From a virus: a stretch of 30,322 bases of DNA. Within the stretch, counting starts at the first letter, position 1, and each line of letters begins with the position of its first letter. The notes below the pieces were generated by a model that was not told the DNA's origin, searched no databases, and was given only the letters and a program-made list of their open reading frames with translations. The DNA lies in IMG/VR virus record IMGVR_UViG_3300047492_000267, positions 1 to 30,322 of that record. One strand, 5' to 3'. The position numbers were made by a program, and so were the translations under genes. This document shows positions 6,340 through 27,482 of this stretch, piece by piece.

Positions 6340-7868
6340 AAAGGACTCCCTTTGGTTCGTTGAGTCTGTGTATCAAAAGGCGCATCTTGTTTATCGTAAT
6401 TAGGGATGCGCCAGCAACGGATAGTTCTATTTTTGATGAACATCGATGTGGGCTCACCACCAATGTCTCGCAGCCGCTGTGCCATGCGTGGTGGCGTAAG
6501 GCCAAAGAAGTTATTGCGTTTAAGATGTGACTCAAGATCCTTGAGCCGGAAATACGTCATCCCCTCTTCTTCGGACCGCCACGGTCTGCCCATGATAATT
6601 TCATCGCGATCAAGGGCCTCTTGCATGTGCGTAGTGAACTCTTCCAATAGATCAAAGAATTTGCCCGTGGTCCGCGCATCTTCAGGCGCTTCCGTGATTT
6701 GTTCTGTTTCAACCATTTCCTTAAGCAATGCATTGAGCATTTGCTCCCAATCTTGCTTACGCAGGGTTGGTGGAAGGATGTTGACTTTCTCTACACAGGC
6801 TTTTTGAAAAAGCGACTGTGTGTACAGGCTTTCAGTGTCTAGTTCAATGCGTTTGCCATTGATATCTAAAAACCAAAGCGGCGGCTCTGAGGTGTATTTG
6901 GACAGCGATGCAATCTGAGGAGCATCTGGCCCGTGAGCCCCGATCCCATACTTACGCGTCCTACACAGACCGCTGTTACAAAAACTGTTGATGGGGGCAT
7001 CTTTGCACTTATAAAGGTAGTCCTTTTTGATGAGCTGCTTGATAATGATTTGCAGTTCATTGTTGCCAAGCGGTGGCGATACATATTTCAAGTTGTACTC
7101 CGCCATCTTGTCTTGCCAGTTCGTCGGGTTAGCTTTTTTTAGGTAGACCCCGATGTTGAAGAGTGCGTTGTTTCTTGTTCCTTCAGGAACGCCTTGCGCA
7201 CAGATGGCTTGCAAGCACGGAGGACCGTCCTTAATTGGGCTTTCAACTTGCTTAGGCCCCTCAGGCATGGATAAAGGCACATCCTGAGCAAACTGCGCAT
7301 GCAGCGCATAAAATTGCTCCAGCGAGGCCGCCGAACCATCTTGATTAAAAGCATAACGAAGTGTTGCATCGCCAGCAAAGTAGGGTAGGTTTAAGAAGTT
7401 CCCTGTATCGCCGCGATCAACGAGTATCTCGGCCTGTTTAGGGAAGATTTCACGACCTGCTTCACCAAGCAGTGCAGCGGCCGTACGAAGATATTGTTGG
7501 AAATCGCGTGCAGGTGCTGGCGTTTTCGTAAACAAGAAAACATGCGCACCGCCTGATTTAGATCGGCAGACAACTAATGGAAGTTTGAGCCTTGCGATTT
7601 TTTCCACCAAGCCCTTGTGGTCCAGTGGATACTGATCAATGTCAATGCAGCCCCAGATACAACTGTGATCAGAGCGAATAGGAATAATACCCAGGGAAGG
7701 CTCAACACCATTAAGATGCTTGACCCAAAGCTCATCCACCGGGGGTTGCCGAACAACAACCGCTTTACCTGATTGCTTGCCGTCATCTCGGGTTTTTTCA
7801 ATTTTGTAAGTTCCATAGGCGATATCAAGACCCTCAAATATCGCACGGAAACGAGTGATGTCAGTCAT
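6336..7868 (-). CDS. Archaeo-eukaryotic-type primase (AEP), TOTE-like
   Basis: This ORF encodes 510 aa. The catalytic pattern of AEP primases is visible: hydrophobic strand with D76-x-D78 (CIDID), S-G-G-A-H (H109), then F-P-K-Q (142-145) and G-N-F-L-N-L-P-Y (156-163). The last two are typical of the primase domain described in TOTE conflict systems and many phages. A second region has a PriCT-like helical part (residues ~220-285) and a cysteine cluster C289, C298, C303 followed by R-T-R-K-Y-G, probably zinc-binding. The C-terminal ~190 residues carry no Walker motif, so no helicase is fused. It starts at ATG 7868. It would synthesise primers for the PolA downstream. Confidence 0.9.
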   Translation of the reverse strand: MTDITRFRAIFEGLDIAYGTYKIEKTRDDGKQSGKAVVVRQPPVDELWVKHLNGVEPSLGIIPIRSDHSCIWGCIDIDQYPLDHKGLVEKIARLKLPLVVCRSKSGGAHVFLFTKTPAPARDFQQYLRTAAALLGEAGREIFPKQAEILVDRGDTGNFLNLPYFAGDATLRYAFNQDGSAASLEQFYALHAQFAQDVPLSMPEGPKQVESPIKDGPPCLQAICAQGVPEGTRNNALFNIGVYLKKANPTNWQDKMAEYNLKYVSPPLGNNELQIIIKQLIKKDYLYKCKDAPINSFCNSGLCRTRKYGIGAHGPDAPQIASLSKYTSEPPLWFLDINGKRIELDTESLYTQSLFQKACVEKVNILPPTLRKQDWEQMLNALLKEMVETEQITEAPEDARTTGKFFDLLEEFTTHMQEALDRDEIIMGRPWRSEEEGMTYFRLKDLESHLKRNNFFGLTPPRMAQRLRDIGGEPTSMFIKNRTIRCWRIPNYDKQDAPFDTQTQRTKGSPF

Positions 7869-12284: not shown

Positions 12285-15200
12285 CTACCTCACTGGTTGA
12301 CCTTGTTGAATCTGTGTTTGCCGTGCCTGCAACAATGCACTGATGGGGTCGTTAGGGAATAGTGCCGGATACATGAGATTGACCTGCGGAGGTCCTGCCT
12401 GTGTTGGAGCTACCGTTTCAGGCGCACGCAGATTTAATCCGCGTGTTGGCGGAGCAGGGGGAAGGGTTCGCAACATCTGGGCGGCTGAAGAAGGAACGCT
12501 AGGTACGTTGTCCTGAATGGTTTCATCCGCCTTTGCAAAATCAGCGATTTCCTGAGCCGTGGTCCGTGCAGCTTTAGGGACGTAAGCACTTGGTGAAATT
12601 CCAATCTTTTGCAACTGAGCGGCTACCTGTTTAGCTTGCTGGACAGTACCCACTTGCGTAATACGACGCGCAAATTCAGGATCTTCCAGCGCGCGGGTAA
12701 AGATCCGTTTGTAGACTTCGTTCTCAAGATTTCCTGCTAAACGAATCATCAGCGCCAATGCACCAGTTTCCGGAGCAATCCTGCCGACTGCCGCTTCACG
12801 GAAGGTTGTGGTTAAGTACTGGATACCAGAGCCAAAAAGACGTTTGATGGATTCATCCACCGATTCAAAGGCTGGGATTTGTCCCGTAACATCCGCAAAA
12901 GCATTTACTCTTCGTTGCAGATCGGCAAGCTTTTTAAGATCGTCTAAATGCTGTGTGTTCTCAAAGAGCACACGCAATGATTTTTCATTGTTGTCGATAA
13001 ACGTTTTGATAGCACCGCCGCCTCGAGCGCCCTCAACGGCTATGTCAAATACCGCACGGCGAAGCGCTCCCATTTGCTCGGGGTCTTTACCAAGTTGATT
13101 AACCAGCACGCGCATCGTGGCAGGATCGCGAAGCGCAGAATTCAGTATTTGCCTTGGATCAGCGTCGGTCCGTGCAGCTTTAGAAAGCAAACGATCAAGC
13201 TCGTTGTCTTGGGCGGTGACTCGGCGCTGTTCAATTTCACCCATCCGACGAACATAGTCATCAGCCAAGGTCACCTCATCACGGAACATCTGTTGAATGT
13301 TTGTAGGCAACGCTTCAACGATATTGCGATTCTTATCCAAAATGGTACGTATCTTCTTTGGATCAACTAACCCTTCTGCGGTCACAGCGCCTTTGCTGCG
13401 AAGCCAATCCAAAGCACCCTTTTGTAAAAGCTCTTCGCCAGCAGGAACACCTGCCAAAGCAACTTGTAAATCGCGAAGATTCTGAGCGTTGGAAAAAGCC
13501 GTCTGCAGCAGACGCTCATTTGGGAGCAAAAACTCTTCGCCCCCACGAACCTTTTTAGTCATAAGCAACGGCAGACTTCTTTCAAAACCTGCGCGGTAAT
13601 CATCAATCACCGCCTTCATGTTGCCGTACTCATTCCTGATCCGTGGAACGTGATCCAGGATCAATTTTTCAACATCACGAAACGTTGCGTTGCCTGCATC
13701 AAGGAATCGTTGCGCATCAGTAATGCGCACCCGACCACGATCCATGGCGGCGTTATAGCGTGCAAGCGAATCGTTGCGATAGCGAATGGCCGATTGCAGG
13801 TAATCCATCGCCTCAGGCAGATTTATATCAATTTTGGTATTAGCTTCCGCTAATCGCGCAGCATCTTCTGCCAAAGCTTTGGGGTTAATTTCAATAGCCC
13901 TACCCCCTGCGACGGGGATACGAACTTCACCCTCTGCACCTTTAAAGAGTTCACGAGCCTGGACTTTACGCTTAGGACCCTTGGCTCCAGCACCGCGAAT
14001 CGCGGCCATGACCTCGGATTTAAGCGATTTCATAAAGTCAGCATCTTGCAAGAGCGACGAACCTTCAAGTTGCTCACGCATCCGCTGATCAACCAGTTGA
14101 TCCATCATCTGCGCTTCCATGCGCTGACGCAGTGCAAGACGGCTATCGACAAAACCTTTCAGTAACGCAATAGGTGTGGGTAACGATAGACGACCGGTCG
14201 GGCGCTCGGGGGTATACTTTTGTATAAGCTTGATCGCTGCATCTTCCATGTCCTGCGACGGAAAAAGGGACTTACCTTCTTCACGTGTGGCCATTGGAAG
14301 TCCTTCAGGAGAAACAGCCTGACGCAGACCCATACGACGAAGGATTTGATTGCGCTGTTGGGCATCAATTTCCATCGTATTCATGAGCACGCCACGTAGC
14401 TCATTGTTTAGCTGATCAATATTCTGTGGGCCAAGACGCTCGGAAATGGCCATGACCTCAGCATCCGTCAGATCCTTTTGCTGGCGCAAAAGACTTTCAA
14501 ACAAAGCCTGACGCTCTGCCTGTGCCTGTTGAAAAGCTTCAACAATCGGTTTTCTTGCAGCCGGTGCAAAGCTATCAAACAAAGCATCCAATTTCTGCTG
14601 GTTTTCATTAATACGTGCTTTGGTAGCTTCAAGTTCTTTAGGACCAAGTTGCTCCAAGAGTTCTGCTTTACGGCGCACCAGCGGTGCGTACATAGACTGC
14701 TCGGCTGCATCAAACAAAAAGCCTGCCTGGGCTACGCGAGGGTCGGCCATCGCAGCTTGCAGTTGACGCAAAGCTTCTTGAGCCTCGGGGCTTTGATTGA
14801 TAGGCCCGAACACTTGTTCAAGTTTGCGCTCAGCGTTTTTAATAAATTGCTTAGGCAAAATATCAACAACAGGTAAACGAAAACCGCGCGGCAGACCTGC
14901 CAAAACTTCCTTTTCAATATCATCCAGACCACCGGATGCCGAGGCTATCTTGTTGCGTGCCCAACCAGCAGCCTGTACGGAGGGAAGCTTAGACACTGCC
15001 AAAGGAATGCCTAAAAAAGCTCCCATTGGCAACAATTCTTTGTAGAGTTGCTTGTTAGGATTCGCTTCGTCTACTTGTTCCTCAACCGCCTGACGAAGGC
15101 TTTCATAGCCTGCACCAAACGCAACGTCCACTGCCGCAGCGACAGCAGGACTTTTTTGAACCATGCTGATAGCATCATCTGCGATTCCTTTAAAAAGAGT

Positions 15201-15614
15201 AGTCGCTTTTGGAGTAGCATTTACCAAAGGACGACTAGCTGCTGCCCAAGCAAGAATACCTGTAAAGGGCATTGAAGCTCCAATCCCTTCACCGATAGCA
15301 CGCGAGTAGCGATCAGCGGCATTCTTTGGTGTTTGCTGGCCTTGGTTAAAAAAGCGACCAAATTCAAAAGCTTGGCCTTCATCAAGACCAATGACTTTGC
15401 CAACATTGCGAGAAAACATATCGGGCAATGCAAAAAGCGCTGAGTTAAAGCCCCACGATAATTGTTGCGCTTTTTCCCAAAGGCTACTAGGTCCCTGATC
15501 AGGACCTGTTTTACGCATATCCGTGGAAGGAACAGGGGCTCCTTCCTGACGCCCGACCACCTCACCGGTGGCTAGGTCAACCAGTTCACCTTTGGTGTTC
15601 GTAATCGTGGGCAT
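12285..15614 (-). CDS. Giant virion protein, probable internal/ejection protein (1109 aa)
   Basis: ATG 15614 begins 1109 aa of mainly alpha-helical, A/Q/R-rich sequence. Residues ~100-230 hold glycine/alanine-rich hydrophobic stretches (G-I-G-A-S-M-P-F-T-G-I-L-A-W-A-A and A-A-V-D-V-A-F-G-A-G) that could insert in a membrane. Long charged helices follow, as in the ejected inner-core proteins of T7-like phages. No lytic transglycosylase motif was found. It lies last among four giant proteins in the late operon, two bases before the small basic gene. A structural role is well supported by position and size; the exact role is inferred. Confidence 0.65.
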   Translation of the reverse strand: MPTITNTKGELVDLATGEVVGRQEGAPVPSTDMRKTGPDQGPSSLWEKAQQLSWGFNSALFALPDMFSRNVGKVIGLDEGQAFEFGRFFNQGQQTPKNAADRYSRAIGEGIGASMPFTGILAWAAASRPLVNATPKATTLFKGIADDAISMVQKSPAVAAAVDVAFGAGYESLRQAVEEQVDEANPNKQLYKELLPMGAFLGIPLAVSKLPSVQAAGWARNKIASASGGLDDIEKEVLAGLPRGFRLPVVDILPKQFIKNAERKLEQVFGPINQSPEAQEALRQLQAAMADPRVAQAGFLFDAAEQSMYAPLVRRKAELLEQLGPKELEATKARINENQQKLDALFDSFAPAARKPIVEAFQQAQAERQALFESLLRQQKDLTDAEVMAISERLGPQNIDQLNNELRGVLMNTMEIDAQQRNQILRRMGLRQAVSPEGLPMATREEGKSLFPSQDMEDAAIKLIQKYTPERPTGRLSLPTPIALLKGFVDSRLALRQRMEAQMMDQLVDQRMREQLEGSSLLQDADFMKSLKSEVMAAIRGAGAKGPKRKVQARELFKGAEGEVRIPVAGGRAIEINPKALAEDAARLAEANTKIDINLPEAMDYLQSAIRYRNDSLARYNAAMDRGRVRITDAQRFLDAGNATFRDVEKLILDHVPRIRNEYGNMKAVIDDYRAGFERSLPLLMTKKVRGGEEFLLPNERLLQTAFSNAQNLRDLQVALAGVPAGEELLQKGALDWLRSKGAVTAEGLVDPKKIRTILDKNRNIVEALPTNIQQMFRDEVTLADDYVRRMGEIEQRRVTAQDNELDRLLSKAARTDADPRQILNSALRDPATMRVLVNQLGKDPEQMGALRRAVFDIAVEGARGGGAIKTFIDNNEKSLRVLFENTQHLDDLKKLADLQRRVNAFADVTGQIPAFESVDESIKRLFGSGIQYLTTTFREAAVGRIAPETGALALMIRLAGNLENEVYKRIFTRALEDPEFARRITQVGTVQQAKQVAAQLQKIGISPSAYVPKAARTTAQEIADFAKADETIQDNVPSVPSSAAQMLRTLPPAPPTRGLNLRAPETVAPTQAGPPQVNLMYPALFPNDPISALLQARQTQIQQGQPVR

Positions 15615-15615
15615 A

Positions 15616-18540
15616 TCACTGTCCGATCAATTGACGCAATTGCGTGGGATTGAAGGCATCCACACGACCATTAGGTAACCGCAAATAGACCGTGGCCCGT
15701 GGATCTTGGAGCTTGCCAATCGTACTACCAAGGAAGGTATACATCATTTTCTGCTGCTGCGGATCAGCCGAAACAACAAAGGGATCGCTTTGTGTGCCGG
15801 TGTTAGGTGTGCGCATCACATAATCGTTGTTTTCGTAACCCAACTGTGTCAAGACCTGTTGACGTGCATTACGCAAGATGGTTTCAAGGCTATTGAACTG
15901 CTGTGCAGCGATTTCCTTGTTAGAAAAGAATCGTGTGGGATTGTTGATGCCTTTAGCTGTTTCGCGAACCCACTCCTGCTCTTGGACCGCGACCCGCCCA
16001 CCATCGTTGGCCGAAGCGATATTCTTCATGATGCTATTTAAACCAACCTGCACTTGCGTTGCAGCATCTTCCTGTTTTACATCAGGTCTGATCAAACCAC
16101 CTGAAATAGGAACCAAGAGGTTGTTAACTTTGTCCTGGAACCACGTACCGGGGCTATAAAGTTCTGCGAACTTACCTTTCAGGTTATCCAGCGTATTAAG
16201 GCTGTTATCCAAAGACCGTAAGGTTGATGTCAGCTTAACGCGTTCCGACTTATCTGTTTCAACCGAAGTCGGTGCTTCTCCACGGTTTTCAACAAAAGGA
16301 TTGTCTGTATCACGAAGCGTGAATCGGCTAGCAACCGCCGACTTAACCGTTGGATCCTTAGGATCAATGGAAAAGCCTAAGAAACTTCCCTTATCGGTTT
16401 TTAGAACACGGCCCCCGGCTCCCGCGTCTTCCAGAACCTGAGTACCAGCTTTTTCAAGCTGCTTCTTCATCAGCTCAAAATCACCTCTGAGCAGTTGCAA
16501 ACGCATGGCTTGAGCATACTTATCCTGCTCTTGTACATCGCCGATAGCTTGCTGCAGTGCAGCAGTGCGAATCTTGATATCGCGATCTTGAGCCTGGGAA
16601 AGAATCGCTGCAAAACCACGTGGTAGTTCTGCTGCCGCTTCACTAATGGCCATTGCAGCCGTTGGCTGACGGGAAGTGCCTAGTTTAAAACCTGCTTGAG
16701 CAAGTAATAGCAAAGCATTGGATCTTGCCGTTTCTTTATCATCCCCCAGCAATTCCTTAAATAGTGGTGCTAATTCCTGATAGCCAGCCCTGATCCGTGA
16801 AGCGCGGTCCGTGGGCAACTCTCCTTTAGCCGCAGCTAATGCAGTGGCTAAGGCTTGAGGCGCAATATTCGCTTCTTCAAACGCTGCTTGGTCGGAGGGA
16901 CGCATCGTTGCGGCTTGTGCAGAAGGCTCTGGAATAGGCTGACCTACACCTGAGACATCCAACCGAGGTAACTCCTCTTTAATAGGTTCAAGAGGGACGT
17001 TAGCGGCAGGGGCCAATGACGTGGTCCGTTGACCGGGGATCTGTGCCAATAACATCTCACGCTCGGCATCGGCTTTTTTCTCTGCTTCAGAGCGTGTGTC
17101 TCTTCCGGTCAATCCTGCTATAAACGTTGCAGGAATACCCGCTGCAAGACCATAGCGTTGCAGCATGTCTGCTGCACGGGGATATTGTTGAGCCAACTGC
17201 TGTGTCCCAAGTCGCAAACCTTCCGTGAAGGTGGGCGATACAGGAGGAGTCAGCGTACCTGCCGGGGCGAATTGCGTACCTCTACCATAACTGATCACGC
17301 CTCCCGGCCCTTGGACCAAGGCGTTTCGCGCTTGGATACTTAAAGGCATAGGCGGTGTTCCACCCATCATTCGCTCAACACCGAACTGCGGACGCATTAG
17401 CAAATTACCGAGATACTGGTTGAGGTTTTGCGCTCCGGTTGCTCCCATCTGCGCCAAGCGTTGCCCCTGTGATACCAACATACCGGTCGCTGCGCGAAGG
17501 GGTGGCAAACCGTCCGGGGTCGGCGGAGCTTGTTCAGCCCCGCCCTGGGGGAAAGGGAGTGGGGGCCCTCCCATAGGAGCTTCCATGGGCGGAGGTGCCA
17601 TACCTTGGGCCTGGGGCAATGCTCCAATGCCTGCTTGCTGTGCAAGTTGGGTCTGCAACATGGCCAACACCTCAGGCGGCGTTTGCATCGCAGCTTCTTC
17701 GCCGACCATCTGAGCAAGCTCCATGTACCGCGCATCCACCGATCGCATGTCACCGCGCAGGTTGTTCATGAGGATTTCAGGGTTTTGAGGTGTGCGGGGA
17801 AGATCCAGTGCTTCATCTTCGTCTTCACTGCCTTCCTGTTCCATCTCATCTTCAAACCCGGAAAGAATGCCCGTGTTACGCGCCTCTTTGGATAAAGGCA
17901 TTGCGAACATGGCGCGCTTGAGAATCTCATCCTCCATTTCTGAATCTCCTTGCATTGCATCAGTAACAGAGCCGCCTTGAGCGAGCTTTACGATGCCTAT
18001 TTTTCCTTCTAAAGGAATAGCGGATGAATTTCCCCCACCACCGCTACCACCTCCGTATCCCCTCATACCACCCTGATTAGATGGTCCAAACATAGAACGT
18101 TGTACACTTTCTAGTGGGTTGTACTCCGGTTCTTTTTGATACTCGGGCAGCCGGTCATACGCGCTTTGCTGAGACGGAAACTGCTGAGACGGAAACTGCT
18201 CCCACATTAACTGCTGAGACGGAAATCCTACGAGGGGAATTGCTGGTAGTTGTTGGGGAGCTGCGAATTCTTGAATGGGCTTATATAACGCTTGTCGATT
18301 AATCGTTGTTCCAAAAGGGGAGGTATTTAACTGCCCGGGCAGACTTGTATTACCCATACCACCAGCCATACCTTGCAGGTTTCTCATTTGAGATTCTTGC
18401 TGGAGTTTGAAATCTCTTTGTGCTTGAGTTTCTGGCCCTCCTCGATACGCCATAGAAGCATTAAAGATATCAAAACCTCCAGGCTTAAGGGAATTTAAAT
18501 CAGGTAAAAGATACGAGCCGTAGGGGGAAGTCGTGGTCAT
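15616..18540 (-). CDS. Giant virion protein, low-complexity (974 aa)
   Basis: ATG 18540 has AGAGATC upstream. The N-terminal third is P/Q/G-rich, with repeated Q-Q-F-P-S-Q-Q and a glycine run (~residues 160-172). A very acidic patch E-D-E-M-E-Q-E-G-S-E-D-E-D-E follows near residue 235, then D-M-R-S-V-D-A-R-Y-M-E-L-A, a pattern I recall from other phage virion proteins. The rest is helical, with A/Q-rich coils and a more ordered end (~800-974). It overlaps nothing but is spaced by a single base from the next gene. A scaffold-like or internal virion role is likely; no enzyme motif is seen. Confidence 0.62.
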   Translation of the reverse strand: MTTTSPYGSYLLPDLNSLKPGGFDIFNASMAYRGGPETQAQRDFKLQQESQMRNLQGMAGGMGNTSLPGQLNTSPFGTTINRQALYKPIQEFAAPQQLPAIPLVGFPSQQLMWEQFPSQQFPSQQSAYDRLPEYQKEPEYNPLESVQRSMFGPSNQGGMRGYGGGSGGGGNSSAIPLEGKIGIVKLAQGGSVTDAMQGDSEMEDEILKRAMFAMPLSKEARNTGILSGFEDEMEQEGSEDEDEALDLPRTPQNPEILMNNLRGDMRSVDARYMELAQMVGEEAAMQTPPEVLAMLQTQLAQQAGIGALPQAQGMAPPPMEAPMGGPPLPFPQGGAEQAPPTPDGLPPLRAATGMLVSQGQRLAQMGATGAQNLNQYLGNLLMRPQFGVERMMGGTPPMPLSIQARNALVQGPGGVISYGRGTQFAPAGTLTPPVSPTFTEGLRLGTQQLAQQYPRAADMLQRYGLAAGIPATFIAGLTGRDTRSEAEKKADAEREMLLAQIPGQRTTSLAPAANVPLEPIKEELPRLDVSGVGQPIPEPSAQAATMRPSDQAAFEEANIAPQALATALAAAKGELPTDRASRIRAGYQELAPLFKELLGDDKETARSNALLLLAQAGFKLGTSRQPTAAMAISEAAAELPRGFAAILSQAQDRDIKIRTAALQQAIGDVQEQDKYAQAMRLQLLRGDFELMKKQLEKAGTQVLEDAGAGGRVLKTDKGSFLGFSIDPKDPTVKSAVASRFTLRDTDNPFVENRGEAPTSVETDKSERVKLTSTLRSLDNSLNTLDNLKGKFAELYSPGTWFQDKVNNLLVPISGGLIRPDVKQEDAATQVQVGLNSIMKNIASANDGGRVAVQEQEWVRETAKGINNPTRFFSNKEIAAQQFNSLETILRNARQQVLTQLGYENNDYVMRTPNTGTQSDPFVVSADPQQQKMMYTFLGSTIGKLQDPRATVYLRLPNGRVDAFNPTQLRQLIGQ

Positions 18541-18549
18541 GGCAGATCT

Positions 18550-21500
18550 CTAAAATAGTTTATTAGCGGCCGCTGCCGTGGAAATGGCCCCGATACCTAA
18601 GCCAAGAGCCTGCATAAAGGGGCTTTGCTGCTGTTGTTGCGTGATGCTTGTTGCCATTTGCGAGGTCGGTGCACCCTTATAAATATCCCCAACCAAGCCA
18701 AGTTGTTGATATGGTTGATAAATATTTTGTAGGGCTGTTTGCCGTTGTGCTTCAATCTGCTGCTGCTGCAACTGACGTTGTGCCTCGCCAATACCAAAGA
18801 GATTTTGAACGTCTGTCTGACCCATACGCTGGGCAGCTTCACCCAAAGCAGCTTGCTGAACACCAATATTGGCAGCTTGTGTGCCAAGTTGCCCCATGCC
18901 TGCCGCGCGCTGCAAGGCTGTCTGCAGTTGCTGCGAGGTTAAAGCACCAATACCTTGACCCAATTGCTGTTGTAATTGGGCTTGTTGCGCCAGTGTTCCT
19001 GCCTGCTGCGTGCCTAACGTGCCATATTGGCCAGCTAAAGCTGCACGCTGCGCAGCCTGTTGAGCAAGAATATTGGCTTGTTGCGTACCTAACTGACCAT
19101 ACTGAGCACCAAGTTGTTGCTGCAGTTGCGCTTGTTGTGCTTGAACGTTAGCAGCCTGCGTACCTAACTGGCCATACTGAGCACCAAGTTGTTGCTGTAA
19201 TTGTGCTTGTTGAGCAAGCACATTAGCAGCCTGCGTACCTAACTGGCCATATTGCGAACCAATAGCCGCTTGTTGTCCTGCCCCTGCCAAGGCACGCTGT
19301 TGTGCTTGTTCAAAGGCTTGTTGCGATGCACCAAGTGCCTGCCCATAACCTTGCTGTAGCGCACCAACAATAGCTGCATTGCGCTGCTCGGCTAAATTAC
19401 GTTCCAATTCAGCACGTTGAATGCCTTCGCGACTGCCGCCGAACGCTCCCGCACGAACAGCCTGCGCTTGGATGTTTTGGCGTGCAATATCGCCCTGACG
19501 ATTGATTTGCTTGATGGCCTCATCAATAACCTGCTGTTGATAAGGATTCATAAACTGGCCGATCTGAGCAGCAGGGGAATAAGCTGCCGAAGTTCCAGTT
19601 AACGCTTGTTGAGCCGCGCTTAATGCACCAATGCCACCTTGTAATCCGGGAGCAGCGGCACCCGCGACACCGCCCGTCGTTGTACCAGCCGCTGCTAATT
19701 GTTGACCTGCGGTAATCATGCTTGGAGCAGCAGCGCCTACGACACCGCCCGTCGTTGTACCAGCCGCTACTAACTGTTGACCTGCTGCAGTAATGCCTGG
19801 AGCAGCAGCACCCGTAATACCTCCCACTTCCTGGCCTGATACGTCTAGTTGAGTACCTGCTCTACCAAACTCAGGGAGAGCCTGCGCATAAATAGAAGAA
19901 ATTCCAGGTTGTGCTGCATACATAGCCGCTTGAGCCGGGGCAAAAGCTTCAGGAATTCTTAAACCTGATAATTCTTGTGTGGCAGGTTGAATACCTTGTG
20001 CCATGGCATAGCGTTGAGATTCTTGTCCTGCGCCAAGATAGGGTAGATAAGCACCAATACCTGTCTGAGCCAAAGCAGCAGCCTGTGCTTGTTGGGGCGT
20101 GAGCCCCGCAACTTGAAACTCCGGTAATGCATAAGGAACGCTACCAAGTTGCTGCGCACGTTGCATCAAACCCAGTTTGTAAGCCTCAACTTCTGGCGCT
20201 TCACGGACAAATTGCGTGGTAATGCCAGAGCCTGTTGGAATACCGGCGGCTGTTACAGCAGCAGGTTGGCTTGTGGCTTGTGTTTGACTTTGCGCGTACA
20301 ACGGACCCGCAGCATTAACCGCTGTTGAAATTGCCGAAACAGCGCCTGGGTATTTGGCAAGCAGTTGTGATTGCACATTAGCAAGGCTGTTGCCTGAACG
20401 TAGCAAGGCTAACGCTTCATCGCGAAGTGCATCAGCGCCGGGAAGATTAGCAGGGGGCTGCGTAGCGTTAGTTGGCGCGGGAATGCCTAATAATTGAAAG
20501 CTTTGAGCGGTTGCGTTAGCAGGATCAAGTTTTAAAATTTCTGCGCGAATTTGCTCTGCGGTGGCACCACCACCAAGCATCTGCCGCACCATATTTTGCT
20601 TGTCTGCAAGCGATGCTGCGGTATTCCATTGCGTGCCAAGGACGTTATAAATCGTTCCAGTGGTCGTCCCCGTTGTCGTTCCGCCAGTGGTCGTTCCCGT
20701 GGTCGTTCCGCCGGTAGTCGTCCCCGTTGTCGTTCCGCCGGTAGTCGTTCCCGTGGTCGTTCCGCCGGTAGTCGTTCCCGTGGTCGTTCCTCCGGTGGTC
20801 GTTCCCGTGGTCGTTCCGCCGGTAGTCGTCCCCGTGGTTGTTCCTCCGGTGGTCGTTCCCGTGGTTGTTCCTCCGGTGGTCGTTCCCGTGGTTGTTCCGC
20901 CGGTAGGAGGTGGTGTAACAGGTTTAGGTGCCCCGAGTAGTGTTAAGTTAGCCTCTGTTGCATTAACTGGATCTGCCGTACTAATCGCCTGACGAATCTG
21001 ATCAACAGAAATGCCCTGGTTTAAAGCCTTTTGAACATACTGCTGTTTTTGAGCAAGACTAGCTTGGGTGTCCCACTGTTGACCAAAAAAATTAAAAAAC
21101 TGAGGTGGGGCAGTAGTTGTTCCAGTTGCTGGTGAGACAGTAATGGTTTCAATTGAAGGGGGAGTTGTTGTTCCACCTGTTGGTGCAACAACTCCTGTTC
21201 CCGTTGGCGTGGTTGTAACGGTTGCAGTTGGCGTAAACGTAGGTGTAGATGTAGCGGCGGGGGTAGCCGTAGAAGTAGGAGTAGGAGTAGGAGTAGGAGT
21301 AGAAGTAGAAGTAGAAGTAGGGGCAGAAGTAGGGGCAGGAGTAGAGGGAGTAGCCTTCGGGATACCCAGCAAATCATATGTTGATTGCGTAGCACTAGCC
21401 GGATCTAGTTCAGCAATTTTGGCTTTAATTTGATCGCTAGTAATTCCTGAGTTCAAAAGTGTTTGAACATAACCTTGTTTTGTAGACAGAGGCGCAGAAG

Positions 21501-21903
21501 AATCCCATTGCAAACCAAAAACATTATAAGTTGGGGCTGATGTAGATGTAGATGTAGATGTAGATGTAGATGTAGATGTAGATGTAGGGGCAGAGGCAGA
21601 AGAAGCTGTATAAACAGGCTCCGGCTCGTAATAAACAGATTCTTGATAAGTGGGTTCTGGGGTATACGTTGTTGTGGGCGTGTTCGTTTGTTGAAGAACA
21701 GGTGCAGATGCAGATGCAGGTGCAGGTGCAGGTGCAGGTGCAGAAGGAGGACTATAACCGTTGTCAAGCATCCAATCGATGTCGGATTGCGGAACACCAG
21801 CACTTGCTAAATCCGCAGTTGTTACCCCGTTAGCATTAAACCAAGCAATTTTCTGTTGTGGCGAATAAGTTGCCCAACTTGAAGGTAATGTAGGTAGTGC
21901 CAT
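18550..21903 (-). CDS. Modular repeat virion protein with low-complexity linkers (1117 aa)
   Basis: The start is ATG 21903 with GAGGTAAATC upstream. The N-terminal ~50 residues contain the helical pattern Q-Q-K-I-A-W-F-N. Three homologous 57-aa modules follow at residues 126-182, 270-326 and 418-474 (N-x-x-G-x-Q-W, K-Q, Q-I, D-P-x-x-A-T, L-L-G-x-P). They are joined by S/T/P-rich linkers and nine G-G-T-T-T-G-T-T-T units (335-415). The C-terminal half is Q/A-rich, with 25-residue repeats built around Q-Y-G-Q-L-G-T-Q (plus strand ~18930-19265). It ends in a hydrophobic A-L-G-L-G-I-G-A-I-S-T-A-A-A-A helix. It is probably an ejected or extended tail component; the function is inferred from context. 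Confidence 0.68.
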   Translation of the reverse strand: MALPTLPSSWATYSPQQKIAWFNANGVTTADLASAGVPQSDIDWMLDNGYSPPSAPAPAPAPASASAPVLQQTNTPTTTYTPEPTYQESVYYEPEPVYTASSASAPTSTSTSTSTSTSTSTSAPTYNVFGLQWDSSAPLSTKQGYVQTLLNSGITSDQIKAKIAELDPASATQSTYDLLGIPKATPSTPAPTSAPTSTSTSTPTPTPTPTSTATPAATSTPTFTPTATVTTTPTGTGVVAPTGGTTTPPSIETITVSPATGTTTAPPQFFNFFGQQWDTQASLAQKQQYVQKALNQGISVDQIRQAISTADPVNATEANLTLLGAPKPVTPPPTGGTTTGTTTGGTTTGTTTGGTTTGTTTGGTTTGTTTGGTTTGTTTGGTTTGTTTGGTTTGTTTGGTTTGTTTGGTTTGTTTGTIYNVLGTQWNTAASLADKQNMVRQMLGGGATAEQIRAEILKLDPANATAQSFQLLGIPAPTNATQPPANLPGADALRDEALALLRSGNSLANVQSQLLAKYPGAVSAISTAVNAAGPLYAQSQTQATSQPAAVTAAGIPTGSGITTQFVREAPEVEAYKLGLMQRAQQLGSVPYALPEFQVAGLTPQQAQAAALAQTGIGAYLPYLGAGQESQRYAMAQGIQPATQELSGLRIPEAFAPAQAAMYAAQPGISSIYAQALPEFGRAGTQLDVSGQEVGGITGAAAPGITAAGQQLVAAGTTTGGVVGAAAPSMITAGQQLAAAGTTTGGVAGAAAPGLQGGIGALSAAQQALTGTSAAYSPAAQIGQFMNPYQQQVIDEAIKQINRQGDIARQNIQAQAVRAGAFGGSREGIQRAELERNLAEQRNAAIVGALQQGYGQALGASQQAFEQAQQRALAGAGQQAAIGSQYGQLGTQAANVLAQQAQLQQQLGAQYGQLGTQAANVQAQQAQLQQQLGAQYGQLGTQQANILAQQAAQRAALAGQYGTLGTQQAGTLAQQAQLQQQLGQGIGALTSQQLQTALQRAAGMGQLGTQAANIGVQQAALGEAAQRMGQTDVQNLFGIGEAQRQLQQQQIEAQRQTALQNIYQPYQQLGLVGDIYKGAPTSQMATSITQQQQQSPFMQALGLGIGAISTAAAANKLF
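18930..19265 (-). repeat. 75-nt tandem repeats encoding 25-residue Q-rich units
   Basis: The bases CGTACCTAACT recur at a 75-nt period near 19084, 19159 and 19234, with more diverged units on the left. On the minus strand each unit encodes about 25 residues beginning Q-Y-G-Q-L-G-T-Q followed by A/Q-rich sequence. The units are long regular helices, probably a fibrous or coiled-coil rod. Confidence 0.8.
20659..20901 (-). repeat. Nine tandem 27-nt units encoding (G-G-T-T-T-G-T-T-T)n
   Basis: The 243 bases divide exactly into nine units of 27 nt, identical in protein but differing at synonymous positions. They form a flexible Gly/Thr linker of 81 residues between modules 2 and 3 of the 1117-aa protein. 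Silent variation with no amino-acid change points to selection for the linker sequence. Confidence 0.92.
21271..21342 (-). repeat. Hexanucleotide array (AGGAGT/AGAAGT type)
   Basis: About twelve consecutive hexamers of the form AGRAGT, with two AGGGGC variants, encode a T/S/P-rich linker of the 1117-aa protein. Hexamer gain or loss keeps the frame, so linker length can change without knocking out the gene. Confidence 0.85.
21539..21586 (-). repeat. Hexanucleotide microsatellite, eight perfect GATGTA copies
   Basis: Forty-eight bases consist of eight uninterrupted GATGTA units. On the minus strand they encode alternating Thr-Ser, the linker before module 1 of the 1117-aa protein. Perfect copies suggest recent slippage. 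Confidence 0.93.
21701..21743 (-). repeat. Hexanucleotide array (GGTGCA/GATGCA)
   Basis: Seven hexamers GGTGCA or GATGCA encode an Ala-Pro/Ala-Ser linker after the N-terminal helical domain of the 1117-aa protein. It is the same kind of in-frame array as the two others in this gene but with a different unit. Confidence 0.85.
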
Positions 21904-21911
21904 GATTTACC

Positions 21912-23738
21912 TCACGCGCGAGCTGGAGCATTTTTCTCCAGCGTGTGCATTAAACGATAAAGGCGTTTTGCGCCCTCTCTACGTGAACCGTTACCGGCTC
22001 CGCGCACAGCACGTGCTGTGAGTACAAATTCCCCGTCCGAGAGCATGGCGGGAATGTCATCGGATTTTTCTGTACCGGGACCTGCAATCTGGCCCGTGCG
22101 CCGAGGATAACCGCCCCCTGCCATCATACTCATAATCCCGCCAGATGCCATACCTGGGGGTGGCGAAAGTCCGTATTTAGCTGGATTTTGTGCAAGCAGC
22201 GTAGCACCTGTGATTTTAGCGCTCTCAGGGATGTTAATAGGTTTCGTTTTAAATCCACCGGTTGCACCAAGAAGGCCAAGACCTGCAGCTACCGATGGGC
22301 CATAAGTTGCCAATACTCCAGGCATCGCTGCTCTTCTTGCAGCTTCAGCGGCTTGAAGTGCATAAAACTCGCGAGTGCTTGGTTGTAAGTTGGCATAAAG
22401 CGGATTACTCATTGCTTTTTGGAAAGCTTGACCTGCCGCTTGTTCTGCACGCGCGGCCCCTGCTTCTTGAATACCTCCGGGTGTTTGTCCCTTCAAGTAA
22501 TCCAAAGCCTGTGGCCCACCGGGAACCATCCCAGCAAGACGTTCAATACCGGTCAAAGGCTGATTAGCCGTGGCGCTTTGTCCGGGTATAGCTGGAGCAG
22601 CAACATCAATAGGAGCAGGACCTTGAATAGCTGGAGCAGCAGCTACAGGGGGTGTGACAGCGTTTGGAGCAAAATCGAGCGGCATGACCCCTGGAATACC
22701 TCCCGGAGGAGCTCCCATATTAGACCCGCCAGGGCTAGCTGCTGTCACATCACTCGGTGTAACAACATTTGATACAGGTGCTTGAGCGGGAGCCATGGCC
22801 TGTGAGCCTACGGTAGGACCACCTGCCGTAGCTGCTCGTGCTTCTTGCTGGCCCATTTGCTCATATTGATTCATGGTGTTTTGTAAGGAACTAGCACCTG
22901 CACTAATAATTCCAGACTGAATGCCACCACGAAGCGCTTCACCAAGTGACTGACCACGCGCTAAACCAACACCTGTTGAAAAGATACCTTGCGCAATATC
23001 CTTAACGTAAGGCTGAAGTGCCGTGGGCAACGATCCACCAATAAGATCACCAATAAACGGACTTACTGCCTGACCAACCCCTGCCGTAACACCAGAAATA
23101 AGCGCCTCTTTCCACGAACCGCCTGTCACTTTGGTGGTAATGGCCGAAGCAATGGGCAACGGGACACCCACTGATGTCAGGGCAATTGTGCCGACCACAC
23201 GAACTGCAGTTTTCAGGAAGCTCTTCCAGCTAAAGTACTCTGGCAATCCAGTGCGTGGGTTGATCGATCCACGACCACCCATAGAACGGAGCACAGCGGC
23301 TTCTTCAGGGCTTATGTGAGCAAGTTGCGTATCACCAAAACGACCCAAAGAGGCTAAGCCACCTTGAGCCATGGGCATCGTAGGACCGGCCCCGCTGGTA
23401 ATAAATTCAAGCAGACCTGCTTTAAGTGCAGCAAAAAACTGAGGATTAAACTGCTCGGGTAAATCTTCGGGATCTGCTAATCCCTGTGCAATCAGTTGTT
23501 GCCTTATCTGCGGGTAATTAGCAGCATTTGCGATGATGTAGTCAACAAGTTGCAGTAATTGTTGAGCATCTGCTGCGGTCATGCCCTCTGCGCCAAGACC
23601 TTCTTGAATGGCTGAGGAGAACTGCGCCGTTTGTTCAGGCGCTTGATCCATCGCAACTTGCTTGGCAGCAAGGTAGAGATTCTCGTCCGTTTCAGGCATC
23701 CCCTGATCAGGGAGGGACATGATTCCTTCGTTTTCCAT
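21912..23738 (-). CDS. Virion protein with tape-measure-like C-terminal motif (608 aa)
   Basis: ATG 23738 is preceded by the same GAGGTAAATC leader as the next gene. The N-terminal 130 residues are helical. Glycine-rich hydrophobic segments (G-T-I-A-L-T-S-V-G-V-P-L-P-I-A-S-A-I and I-S-G-V-T-A-G-V-G-Q-A-V) follow at ~185-230. The A/P/G-rich middle is disordered. The end carries G-P-G-T-E-K-S-D-D-I-P-A-M-L-S-D-G-E-F-V-L-T-A and G-A-G-N-G-S-R-R-E-G-A-K-R, a motif known from many phage tail and internal virion proteins. It lies between the nozzle region and the giant repeat protein, so a tail or ejection function is likely; details are unknown. Confidence 0.7.
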   Translation of the reverse strand: MENEGIMSLPDQGMPETDENLYLAAKQVAMDQAPEQTAQFSSAIQEGLGAEGMTAADAQQLLQLVDYIIANAANYPQIRQQLIAQGLADPEDLPEQFNPQFFAALKAGLLEFITSGAGPTMPMAQGGLASLGRFGDTQLAHISPEEAAVLRSMGGRGSINPRTGLPEYFSWKSFLKTAVRVVGTIALTSVGVPLPIASAITTKVTGGSWKEALISGVTAGVGQAVSPFIGDLIGGSLPTALQPYVKDIAQGIFSTGVGLARGQSLGEALRGGIQSGIISAGASSLQNTMNQYEQMGQQEARAATAGGPTVGSQAMAPAQAPVSNVVTPSDVTAASPGGSNMGAPPGGIPGVMPLDFAPNAVTPPVAAAPAIQGPAPIDVAAPAIPGQSATANQPLTGIERLAGMVPGGPQALDYLKGQTPGGIQEAGAARAEQAAGQAFQKAMSNPLYANLQPSTREFYALQAAEAARRAAMPGVLATYGPSVAAGLGLLGATGGFKTKPINIPESAKITGATLLAQNPAKYGLSPPPGMASGGIMSMMAGGGYPRRTGQIAGPGTEKSDDIPAMLSDGEFVLTARAVRGAGNGSRREGAKRLYRLMHTLEKNAPARA

Positions 23739-23746
23739 GATTTACC

Positions 23747-24388
23747 TCAAGCCGGTATGGAAGATACAAAAGCCATCGTCGCTATGACAGAAGGCGTAGC
23801 TGGTCTAGTTGGAGAAGAAGCAGCAACAATATGTTCAATTCTTACCAAAATGTCACTGGTGCGCCAATAAAGTTCCACATAGTCACCTGTTTGCATAGGC
23901 AAAAATAAATTCAAAGCTGCAATCAAATGTCCTTCAACCCCACCATGACTGTTAGGCACAGAAAACTGAGAATTGCTGTTTGAAACATTTGTCCCATTTA
24001 TCGCCGCCCAAACATCTACATCATGAATTTGTGTATCAGCATTAGCGAATTGAATACTGAATTGTAAATTGTAAACACCAGGGTAAGTAACGGTTAGTTT
24101 GGAATTGCCTGCTAAATAAACACTATCGGATATGTCAGTTACGTCATAAGTAATCGCGTACGCTGCCGTTGTACTAACCGCAGTTTGATCCGAATCGCTT
24201 GACCAAGCACCAAACGGATTACTCATAAACCGACCCCCATCAGGACCCAGTAGGCTGCGGGTAATGTTTTCAAGCCGGTTGAAATAAAGCCTTAAAACGT
24301 TTGAAAACTGATCCTGATATCCGGATGAGTATTCCCGTGGTGCAATCGGAAGATTGGGAACGGCAGGATTGTCAAGTTTTAGTGTCAT
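23747..24388 (-). CDS. Probable tail-associated jelly-roll (C1q-like) protein
   Basis: This ORF encodes 213 aa from ATG 24388 (TGATG junction with the nozzle gene); GTG 24391 would add one residue. Residues ~20-50 (Y-Q-D-Q-F-S-N-V-L-R-L-Y-F-N-R-L) form a short coiled helix that I recall from the attachment parts of phage virion proteins. From ~75 onward the strand-rich pattern, with Y-P-G-V-Y-N-L-Q-F-S-I-Q-F and L-P-M-Q-T-G-D-Y-V-E-L-Y-W, looks like a C1q/TNF-type jelly roll, common in receptor-binding or decoration proteins. The fold assignment is by pattern only. Confidence 0.65.
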   Translation of the reverse strand: MTLKLDNPAVPNLPIAPREYSSGYQDQFSNVLRLYFNRLENITRSLLGPDGGRFMSNPFGAWSSDSDQTAVSTTAAYAITYDVTDISDSVYLAGNSKLTVTYPGVYNLQFSIQFANADTQIHDVDVWAAINGTNVSNSNSQFSVPNSHGGVEGHLIAALNLFLPMQTGDYVELYWRTSDILVRIEHIVAASSPTRPATPSVIATMAFVSSIPA

Positions 24389-26523
24389 CACGCACCACGG
24401 CCCGTGGCCCGTCCATCCCCACGGATATCAAGGCGTGGAGCACCCAACTGCCAAGTACAGCCAACCTGGGTTGATTCCAGTTTTAGAATCATTTGACGTC
24501 CGCGAACACGGACATAGATTTGTCCAGTGAATTGTTCAATGGGCACCGTAGAAGTTCGTGTAATACTGGCTGAACTACTACCAGCAAGCGATTGAGGATT
24601 GTTATATCCAGATCCAGAATTCATCATGGGAATCAGTGTCATAACCGCTTGGGGACTCGTGGCCGTTGAGCCGTCAAACGTGATATCCGGCAAAATGCGA
24701 TACACAAATCCCAGGTTATGACCATCTTGGATGTCAAACTCTGATGTTTCAATCGTCGCTGTAATAGCTTGCGTGGTTCCTGTTTCGTTGTCGTCTACCC
24801 CAAATTCATGATCCACGATGTTGTAGTTGTAAGTCGCAGCCTGTGGGTACTGTCTCAGACCTGAATCACTCCAAGCAGTTCGTGCCATCGTGCCGTAGTA
24901 CCAAATGTCCTCGGCGTAGTTGTAGACTACATATCGATCAATCGTATTTGAGTTTGCAGAGCAATACCACCACCAAACCTCGTTAAAGCCCTCGCTCGTA
25001 CCGGCAAAAATCTGGAACTTTTGGTAGCGGTTGATGTCATTGAAAACATACCGACGTAAATCACACCGCAGTGTTTGCACACGACCGTTATAGCTGTAAA
25101 ACTTATCAACCCCCATCCAAAAGGTTATGCCCGAAGCTGTTGCAACAGCGTTAGGACCCATGATGGAGGTGTTGTCAGCAAGGATTTGCGAACCCCAAAC
25201 CAAAGGTGGACCAAGATACTGAATGGAAAATAAAGCAGAATCCGTCCAAGCAAGAATCTCTTGCCTAGTTTGCTGCACTGCAATAATCTGTGAGCCGTGG
25301 GATAAACGTAAGCTACCTGCTTGGTTTAACGCAGAGGGAACCCAATCAACCAGTGATTCCTGATCACCCCAACGAATAAGCATGGGATCGGCGGTAGAAC
25401 TTCCAATGGGGGTTGTTCCAAAAACAAGCAAGAACCGTGAAGCATCCGAAACCAGCATGTTGTATTGCACGGTAGGCACATCAACAAGCGTAGAAATACT
25501 TTGCGTTCCAGACTGTGCGCCTGATGTTGTAATAGCTGAACCGCCTAATGAACTGGCAAGATTAGCTGTCAAACCACTAACATTTACCAAATAATAGGTA
25601 GTTCCAGCCGTAAGGCCCGTGGGCAACGCACCTGTAGTTGCTAACTTGATTGCCGTACCTTCGGCCAAAGGTTGAGATAGCGTAATCACGCAAGGTGAAG
25701 CTATTGTCAGAGTAACAGTACCCCCAAGGCTGTTGAGCGCAACACCTCTTGTTGATAAGCCGTTAGTCGCATCCCAATAATAAATACCAGCCGTGCGTGG
25801 CCCAAAGACAAGGTCTTCACCCCAGTTATTGGCATTCCATATGCGCAATGGATCTGTAACCTGTGGCGTAACACCCCATGACCCACTACCCCAGGCACCT
25901 GCGCCCCAACCAATGAGAGGAAGTTCCGCGATCCCCGGTCCTGTATTGACTTGAAAAGCGCCAACAGAAGATCCGCCTCCGTTGCCTACATCCGAAGCAT
26001 TGGATGTAACGGCGGCTCCCGTTCCGGGATCCTTGGCAGTAAACTGAAATGTATTGGTCGTTACAGCAGTGATCTGGTATTGTTGGTTAAGGACCGCTGC
26101 CGTGATGTTTCCACCGAGGCTCACGGCTCCTGAAATAGTTACGAAATCGCCGACGATAGCGCCATGCGCAGCAGATGTTGCAGTGATGGTTGATGAAAAA
26201 GGCGCTACTGTAACAGCCGAAAATGTAACGGCTTGCGTTAAACGTATGGGAGTGATGTCTGAATAAGCACCGCCCTGCTCAATGTAGTACTTAAGGTTAG
26301 TTCCAACACCTAACAAATTGTTGTTGGCAAGCGTTACCCAGTTCCATAGGGACCGGCAGATACCCAAATACACAGCCTGGGAAATGCGCCGCCAACCACC
26401 TATTTTTTCAGGAGAACCTTGACGAAAACGTACCTTATCCGAGACATACCATCCCCCTTCGGACGAATATCGCGGAGTTTCTTTATTGACTCCAGGCTTA
26501 CTGAGAATCTTGGACAGTGGCAC
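24388..26523 (-). CDS. Tail nozzle / P22 gp10-like protein with two inserted beta domains
   Basis: This ORF encodes 711 aa. The start is GTG 26523, with GAGGTGA upstream. The N-terminus (P-G-V-N-K-E-T-P-R-Y, E-G-G-W-Y, K-V-R-F-R-Q-G, E-K-I-G-G-W) and the strand-rich W/Y-containing body look like the beta-propeller tail-closure proteins of podoviruses (P22 gp10 group). Two insertions stand out: ~97-165 (A-H-G-A-I-V-G-D-F-V-T-I-S-G) and ~268-343 (T-G-A-L-P-T-G-L-T-A-G-T-T-Y-Y), both familiar as mobile beta modules in phage structural proteins. The end, Y-V-R-V-R-G-R-Q-M-I-L-K-L-E-S, resembles the final strands of gp10. Nozzle identity is probable, not proven. Confidence 0.65.
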   Translation of the reverse strand: MPLSKILSKPGVNKETPRYSSEGGWYVSDKVRFRQGSPEKIGGWRRISQAVYLGICRSLWNWVTLANNNLLGVGTNLKYYIEQGGAYSDITPIRLTQAVTFSAVTVAPFSSTITATSAAHGAIVGDFVTISGAVSLGGNITAAVLNQQYQITAVTTNTFQFTAKDPGTGAAVTSNASDVGNGGGSSVGAFQVNTGPGIAELPLIGWGAGAWGSGSWGVTPQVTDPLRIWNANNWGEDLVFGPRTAGIYYWDATNGLSTRGVALNSLGGTVTLTIASPCVITLSQPLAEGTAIKLATTGALPTGLTAGTTYYLVNVSGLTANLASSLGGSAITTSGAQSGTQSISTLVDVPTVQYNMLVSDASRFLLVFGTTPIGSSTADPMLIRWGDQESLVDWVPSALNQAGSLRLSHGSQIIAVQQTRQEILAWTDSALFSIQYLGPPLVWGSQILADNTSIMGPNAVATASGITFWMGVDKFYSYNGRVQTLRCDLRRYVFNDINRYQKFQIFAGTSEGFNEVWWWYCSANSNTIDRYVVYNYAEDIWYYGTMARTAWSDSGLRQYPQAATYNYNIVDHEFGVDDNETGTTQAITATIETSEFDIQDGHNLGFVYRILPDITFDGSTATSPQAVMTLIPMMNSGSGYNNPQSLAGSSSASITRTSTVPIEQFTGQIYVRVRGRQMILKLESTQVGCTWQLGAPRLDIRGDGRATGRGA

Positions 26524-26526
26524 GGC

Positions 26527-26988
26527 TCACCTCATCAGTGCAGCTTCAGCATCACGCCGAATAACTAACCCACGCAAGACCTTACCGCCACCACGGACCC
26601 ACAGCTTAAGTTGCTCTATGGCTCCATCCCAATCTTGCTGGTTAATTTTGCGCTTAAGTGTAGAGGTCTGCAATCTGCCGACGCCAAGGTTATAGCAAAA
26701 ATCTACGATAGCATTAAGCTTACCCCAATCCTTGTTTTGAATAGCAAGGGTCAACAAGATGGGGCATTGCCTAATAGTTCCCGGTGCATAGGTATGAACA
26801 AGCTCGTGCATCAATAACCGTTCAGCATACTCACGGTCAATACTAGGATCGTCTTTGGTTACCTTATCCCCATTAGCGTAATACGTTGAACCGTAACCAA
26901 TCGTCCACACCCCCGCAGGGCATAGGTAAGGTTTGGCTGAAAACCCTTCAAATCTTCGGCACAGTTCAGCGGCTAGATCTAGTTTCAC
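26527..26988 (-). CDS. Lysozyme/endolysin, glycoside hydrolase family 24 (T4-type)
   Basis: This ORF encodes 153 aa. The start is GTG 26988, overlapping the holin stop in a GTGA. The catalytic pattern E-8x-(D/C)-5x-T is met by E14, C23 and T29 (R-F-E-G-F ... L-C-P-A-G-V-W-T-I-G-Y-G), so the aspartate of T4 lysozyme is cysteine here, an accepted variant of the family. There is no signal peptide or SAR-type N-terminal helix, so release should need the holin. It cleaves the glycan strands of host peptidoglycan. It sits between holin and tail genes, a lysis cassette embedded in the structural operon. Confidence 0.94.
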   Translation of the reverse strand: MKLDLAAELCRRFEGFSAKPYLCPAGVWTIGYGSTYYANGDKVTKDDPSIDREYAERLLMHELVHTYAPGTIRQCPILLTLAIQNKDWGKLNAIVDFCYNLGVGRLQTSTLKRKINQQDWDGAIEQLKLWVRGGGKVLRGLVIRRDAEAALMR

Positions 26989-27482
26989 GCTAATCCTCTA
27001 GCCTTCAAGGTACGGTCAAGGAACCAATAGTTAAACGTGCCTGCTACTAATGCAGCAAAGTCAGGTGACATGATCATCTTAAATACTTCTTGAACAGGCA
27101 GTCCTTCACGGGAAGCAATGATGGCAAACCAGATATGCGAAGCTGACCAGATAGCAAGAATCCAATAAGTAACCACGGGCCTGACTGATGCTGATAACGA
27201 AGCAACCCATCCGCCAGCAGCCTTTGCCATCTCGGTTTGTGAATTAATAGCTGCTTCAAATGCAGCCATAACACCCGTATCAATAGCCTTATCACGTTCA
27301 GCACCGATCTCAGCTAGCTTCATCTCACCACGGATTTGTTCTAACTCGCACTGGCGATTGAACATGGATAGTTCATGCTGCCTTTCGTTCTTGCGGTCAA
27401 GGAACTTTAGAACCTCCGGCGCTAGCCGGAATAAGCCACCGAAGATCGTACCGAAAAGACCGCCGCCAATGATGTCTAGCAT
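26985..27482 (-). CDS. Holin, probable three-TM family
   Basis: This ORF encodes 165 aa from ATG 27482, overlapping the previous stop by one base (TAATG). It has a hydrophobic glycine-rich N-terminus (L-D-I-I-G-G-G-L-F-G-T-I-F-G-G), a charged coiled middle (~25-70), then two membrane helices near 103-123 (V-V-T-Y-W-I-L-A-I-W) and 141-156, separated by a short loop. The S-V-R-P-V-V-T-Y-W motif recalls the GTA/phage 3TM holin group. Direct coupling to the lysozyme gene supports the holin role. The protein would form the membrane lesion that releases lysozyme. Confidence 0.8.
   Translation of the reverse strand: MLDIIGGGLFGTIFGGLFRLAPEVLKFLDRKNERQHELSMFNRQCELEQIRGEMKLAEIGAERDKAIDTGVMAAFEAAINSQTEMAKAAGGWVASLSASVRPVVTYWILAIWSASHIWFAIIASREGLPVQEVFKMIMSPDFAALVAGTFNYWFLDRTLKARGLA

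Follow-up and report, generated by a model that had tools for sequence, protein, structure and literature searches.

The 1117 aa open reading frame (ORF) at positions 18550–21903 (minus strand) of IMG/VR record IMGVR_UViG_3300047492_000267, a 30,322 nt (30.3 kb) stretch of DNA from an uncultured water phage that is here called, as a whole, the window, very probably encodes an internal virion protein that is ejected and that has acquired a modular front half. The phage would be short-tailed and structurally of the LUZ24/phiEco32-like lineage. The ORF begins with an ATG, and its product combines the modular N-terminal half with an ejection-protein core (residue positions are given in the numbering of the 1117 aa protein). 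Judged from the sequence, residues 1–555 have been added to the front and consist of small modules, predicted to fold, that are strung in the order A, B, B, B on uncharged linkers. The core is a member of a known SU10 gp21-like family, and it is the front half, made of mobile mini-modules, that is new. A first-pass annotation had proposed a flexible, ejected protein of beads-on-a-string design, and the reading as an ejected virion protein is well supported: it is favoured by the homology to SU10 gp21, by the cysteine-free cassette in which the gene lies and by a B module that is predicted to fold beside a first linker modelled mostly at low confidence.

The conserved core spans residues 556–1117 (18553–20238, minus strand) and is predicted to be helical. 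When the core profile was compared with gp21 of SU10 (Kuravirus), the score was 22.1 bits (E 5e-9), rising to 43.3 bits after one iteration. As 100 local and 100 global shuffles of gp21 scored far below zero (local maxima −22.1 and −14.7) and reversed gp21 scored below −22, the match does not stem from the Q-rich composition. The same profile matched a 412 aa protein of MW202496, annotated as 'chaperone of endosialidase', at 52 bits. This protein in turn matched PHROG 4287, 'DNA ejection protein' (E 1.9e-32), and hence bridges the core to that family. SU10 gp21 (E 1e-117) and gp22 (E 3e-109) are members of PHROG 4287, and LUZ24 gp53, annotated as 'phage particle protein', gave a weak match (E 1.3e-6). 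The window core alone did not reach the threshold against PHROG 4287 in a single-sequence hmmscan; core-bearing A-module proteins from other contigs did match it, for example that of L166 with E 1.6e-14. The core alignment contains invariant QFMNPYQQ and GAFGG-R motifs, and the core of the window protein has the motifs QFMNPYQQ, GAFGGSREG and PYQxLxxxxDIYKGAP. These matches place the core, by homology, in the SU10 gp21/PHROG 4287 ejection-protein family. SU10 gp20–24 have been found in virions and are gone from the genome-release intermediate (PMC9509320). T7 gp14 was ruled out as a relative of the core, its score being equalled by gp14's own local shuffles, and a C-terminal membrane helix was ruled out because the best 19-residue hydropathy, 1.28, was below the shuffle mean of 1.50.

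Homologues of the core begin at window residue ~556–563, within their own first ~5–20 residues, and the first ~555 residues, which are lacking in the closer core relatives, are thus an addition. Like the window protein, SU10 gp21 and gp22 have the homologous core, are free of cysteine and are encoded in an ejection cassette, but they are only 350 and 322 aa long and have neither A or B modules nor a low-complexity front half. In DSL-LC04 (proposed 'Dishuiviridae'; OR003939) and the IMG/VR contigs L006, L011 and L012, the core and its neighbours are clearly homologous and in the same order as in the window, but the proteins start at the equivalent of residue ~556–563 and are without modules. 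The last gene of this order in DSL-LC04, which it shares with L006 and L011, is named 'DNA transfer protein'.

The gene is the second in a cassette of four cysteine-free genes, all on the minus strand. The first (608 aa, 21912–23738) ends in a GEFVLTARAVRGAG motif, the third (974 aa, 15616–18540) begins with an add-on of ~200 aa that its relatives do not have, and the fourth (1109 aa, 12285–15614) is a relative of the DSL-LC04 'DNA transfer protein'. A gene for a gp10-like tail stabilization/nozzle protein (24388–26523, minus strand; PHROG 3287, E 2e-54), which has relatives in LUZ24-like, pelagiphage and lake phages, lies two genes upstream and runs the same way within the operon, so that the order in one direction is gp10-like, 214 aa, 608 aa, 1117 aa, 974 aa and 1109 aa. 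The core also lies downstream of a gp10-like gene in L138, L159, L163, L164, L193 and L211, as it does in the window, and directly after it in MW202496. The four genes are laid out like known ejection cassettes and share their cysteine-free composition. The ejectosome proteins of P22 (gp7, gp20 and gp16) and T7 (gp14, gp15 and gp16) are likewise cysteine-free; their genes follow those of the tail, and the proteins are kept in the head until they are ejected (PMC8954989), but we found no sequence homology between them and the window core. The GEFVLTARAVRGAG/GEYVVRRKAVNKYG motif, C-terminal and familiar from tape-measure proteins, was seen at residues ~545–600 of the first cassette protein and again among module proteins and tape-measure hits; its carriers besides window 21912–23738 are L112, L157, L164 and L189.

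The four cassette proteins (window 12285–23738) contain no cysteine in 3808 residues, where 36 would be expected from the frequency in the 13 other ORFs of the window. Ejection proteins of T7 (gp14–16), P22 (gp7, 20 and 16), SU10 (gp20–24) and SP6 (35–37) have a single cysteine in 9013 residues, compared with 88 in 13338 for other proteins of these virions (Fisher p 8e-19). The N4 virion RNA polymerase (3500 aa) also has none, and together with its two neighbours the count is 0/4294. Among the 71 distinct module-bearing proteins described below there are six cysteines in 43450 residues, five of which sit in two ORFs (L005/L127 and L107) with apparently frame-shifted tails. In L005/L127 (IMGVR_UViG_3300011116_000386), the module protein is apparently split by a frame change that leaves modules and core in separate ORFs. 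The near absence of cysteine is a regularity measured here and, as far as we found, not a published criterion; no literature statement of it was found, subscription journals being outside the scope of the search. Since outer virion proteins can also be poor in cysteine, the cysteine-free cassette is support for an ejection role and not proof of it. The near absence of cysteine from ejected proteins offers a simple sign for recognizing unannotated ejection cassettes.

The front half begins with the A module (residues 6–53, 21745–21888; LPSSWATYSPQQKIAWFNANG...DIDWMLDNGYSPP; profile E 9e-24), a 48-residue type distinct from B that the first-pass annotation had missed. All features of the protein lie on the minus strand. 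Linker 1 (residues 54–125, 21529–21744) is rich in P, A, S and T and has no K or R. It is followed by B module 1 (residues 126–182, 21358–21528), the T/P/S-rich linker 2 (residues 183–269, 21097–21357), B module 2 (residues 270–326, 20926–21096), linker 3 (residues 327–418, 20650–20925), which consists of (GGTTTGTTT)n encoded by 9.1 copies of a 27 bp tandem DNA repeat, and B module 3 (residues 419–475, 20479–20649). Three homologous modules of 57 residues had been claimed previously, and their homology, their length and the places of the first two stand; the third was one residue out, having been put at 418–474. B modules 1 and 2 are identical at 29/57 residues (51%) without gaps, and the BLOSUM62 scores of the B pairs are 126–152, whereas 500 shuffles reached no more than 43. 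The low-complexity character proposed for the linkers is borne out, as the three (72, 87 and 92 residues) are 61%, 76% and 97% T, S, P and G, with a charge of nearly nil. Within the core there are two 75 bp tandem arrays encoding 25-residue units, one of 2.3 copies (19642–19813) and one, rich in Q, A and G, of 2.7 copies (19058–19262; 83% matches). Such units had been described, but the 'fibrous' character given to their region is not supported, as long helices were modelled there, with confidence that is low to moderate.

The A and B region was modelled with AlphaFold2 from 22 sequences. The B module was predicted to fold, as a beta hairpin and three helices with a predicted local distance difference test score (pLDDT) of 82–87, and the A module to form three short helices at ~75; most of the first linker was below 50. 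When this model was used to query the PDB and BFVD with Foldseek, there was no usable match (best E 1.9 and 2.7), and the core model gave none in the PDB (best E 9). Neither module had a significant match in Pfam, NCBIfam, PHROG or the PDB. Weak Pfam and NCBIfam hits to CMD, SinI and MED7 were below the cut-off and were dropped, and the best PDB hits of the module profiles (E 0.29 for B and 0.056 for A) were rejected. These sequence and structure searches thus yielded no ligand, known fold or homologous domain for the modules. Binding of DNA is unlikely, as K and R are not in excess of D and E in either module.

Profile-guided scans of IMG/VR found B at 67 loci and A in 91 stretches, which represent 71 distinct module proteins, all of uncultured phages. 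No A or B module was matched in 50,697 cultured-phage records, nor in GTDB bacterial genomes at the sensitivity used. The orders A-B, A-B-A-A, A-B-B-A-A, A-B-B-B-A-A, A-A-A, A-B-A, A-B-B-B and a single A were seen, and the C-terminal partners include a GEYVV-type tail, the ejection core and at least three others. Modules and ejection core form one protein in the window, L004, L164, L166, L178–180 and L189, whereas in L157, L159, L162 and L211 the modules have a gene of their own immediately upstream of that for the core. L164 and L189 have the modules, a GEFV motif and the core all in a single chain. The modules thus recur, in numbers and orders that vary, ahead of different domains, whether joined to the ejection core or one gene ahead of it, and because they are fused or adjacent across phages, the arrangement argues that modules and core act together. 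A further type, C, was found in L004, L163, L185 and L211. It is probably related to B, as hhalign gave a probability of 91% for B and the type C of L004. That A is a copy of B was not shown (12%).

Comparison of the window with L004 and L005 revealed a 202 bp stretch (21350–21551, minus strand) covering B module 1 that differs at just one base, while either side of it the identity is 70–80%. The linker beside module 1 shares only ~70% DNA identity, and the gp10-like genes share about 65–87% per 100 bp. Silent divergence (dS) is 0.03 in B module 1 and 0.94 in the adjoining A module. At least one module was thus swapped very recently between phages. Between other related contigs, the ratio of non-silent to silent divergence (dN/dS) in the modules is 0.02–0.09, which indicates purifying selection. 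Together with the near-identical patch in diverged flanks, this shows the modules to be selected protein domains that are moved by recombination; they are traded freely between unrelated, uncultured phages. Neighbouring genes have recombined too, as a 102 bp patch of the next gene (18353–18454) is 90% identical to the middle of the same L004 protein. In that next gene, residues 1–200 of the 974 aa protein (window 17940–18540) are a second N-terminal add-on missing from relatives, and a 34-residue piece of it (RGGPETQAQRDFKLQQ...) is also found in the middle of the L004 module protein. Ejection proteins that trade domains are known, as a peptidoglycan-hydrolase domain has been swapped between T7 gp16-like and gp15-like proteins (PMC8954989). 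However, the parts traded here are tiny repeated modules on simple linkers and not an enzyme.

Several observations weigh against an ejection role, for the front half in particular. Residues 1–555 have no homologue in any experimentally studied protein, and their ejection would follow from their sharing a chain with the core. The largest module group (A-B-A-A and A-B-B-B-A-A with a GEYVV tail, for example L112) has its gene between those for portal and scaffold, and no SU10 gp21-like core was detectable in its contigs. A membrane-spanning element like that of T7 gp14, sought by hydropathy, was not found in the window protein. The AlphaFold2 model of the core, mostly long helices, is weak (mean pLDDT 59.6), and some core relatives have an S74 intramolecular chaperone, which is typical of fibres. 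As a side observation, the L112 contig (60335 bases) has two gp10-like genes ~34 kb apart and is possibly a duplicated or concatemeric assembly.

The position of the L112-type gene, and the fusion or adjacency of modules and core, would also fit modules that work inside the virion by tethering ejection proteins to the portal, the scaffold or each other during assembly. We regard this as rather unlikely, as the modules vary in copy number and pass between phages whose portals and nozzle proteins are only distantly related (the L112-type nozzle protein is only ~25% identical over ~170 residues), which an assembly contact would be expected to resist. Assembly tethers and ejection are mutually compatible, and the likelihoods given here are hence not meant to sum to one. 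It is very unlikely that the modular half is neutral or packing filler, a spacer of variable length grown by slippage and recombination. The linkers are indeed slippage-prone simple repeats that span 5 to 93 residues between B modules across the module proteins, and the modular half is wholly missing from many core relatives. However, the strong purifying selection on the modules, the 13 invariant residues kept across 10 module copies and the predicted fold are not expected of filler. It is highly improbable that the protein is an external tail fibre or adhesin with modules that attach to the surface of the host prior to ejection. Beads on P/T/S strings do look like extracellular adhesins, the S74 chaperone domain is present in the core relatives of MW202496 and L211, and depositors have named relatives 'tail spike protein/chaperone'. 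However, the window protein has no Peptidase_S74 or receptor-binding domain (no Pfam match), its core groups with SU10 gp21, which leaves the virion upon genome release, its gene sits in the ejection cassette, and it has no cysteine, which the control phages do have in their fibres and other outer proteins.

As an ejection protein, the product would be stored in the phage head and would exit via the portal–tail channel into the host cell ahead of the DNA, where the core may help to build a conduit through the host envelope. Modules of ~6 kDa on uncharged linkers would suit a narrow channel, through which their small size would let them pass one bead at a time. Beyond the channel, they would most likely act as interchangeable beads, spaced by the linkers, that dock on a component of the envelope or on another of the ejection proteins; that it is an envelope component they bind, and that their exchange tunes delivery to the host, is a guess. 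The broader proposal that A, B and C modules are mobile, swappable 'tips' of the ejection machinery, whose docking on the host envelope adapts the ejection step, beyond adsorption, to new hosts, is tentative, and we consider it unlikely. No part of short-tailed phages is less well understood than their ejection proteins, and the basis of host specificity is usually looked for in the fibres alone. Modules that move between the ejection proteins of different phages under strong selection suggest that host adaptation has a second layer, which acts later, and as soluble 6 kDa domains they could be used in a search for partners.

Two features elsewhere in the window were also noted. The lysis region (26518–27170) is about 98–100% identical to L005 per 100 bp, and there is a sharp mosaic border at ~26530, where the identity falls to about 76% in the adjoining gp10-like gene. 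A 510 aa protein (6336–7868) matches a TOTE-type archaeo-eukaryotic primase (E 1e-10) and adjoins a UvrD-like helicase and a family A polymerase, which together make up a phage replication set.

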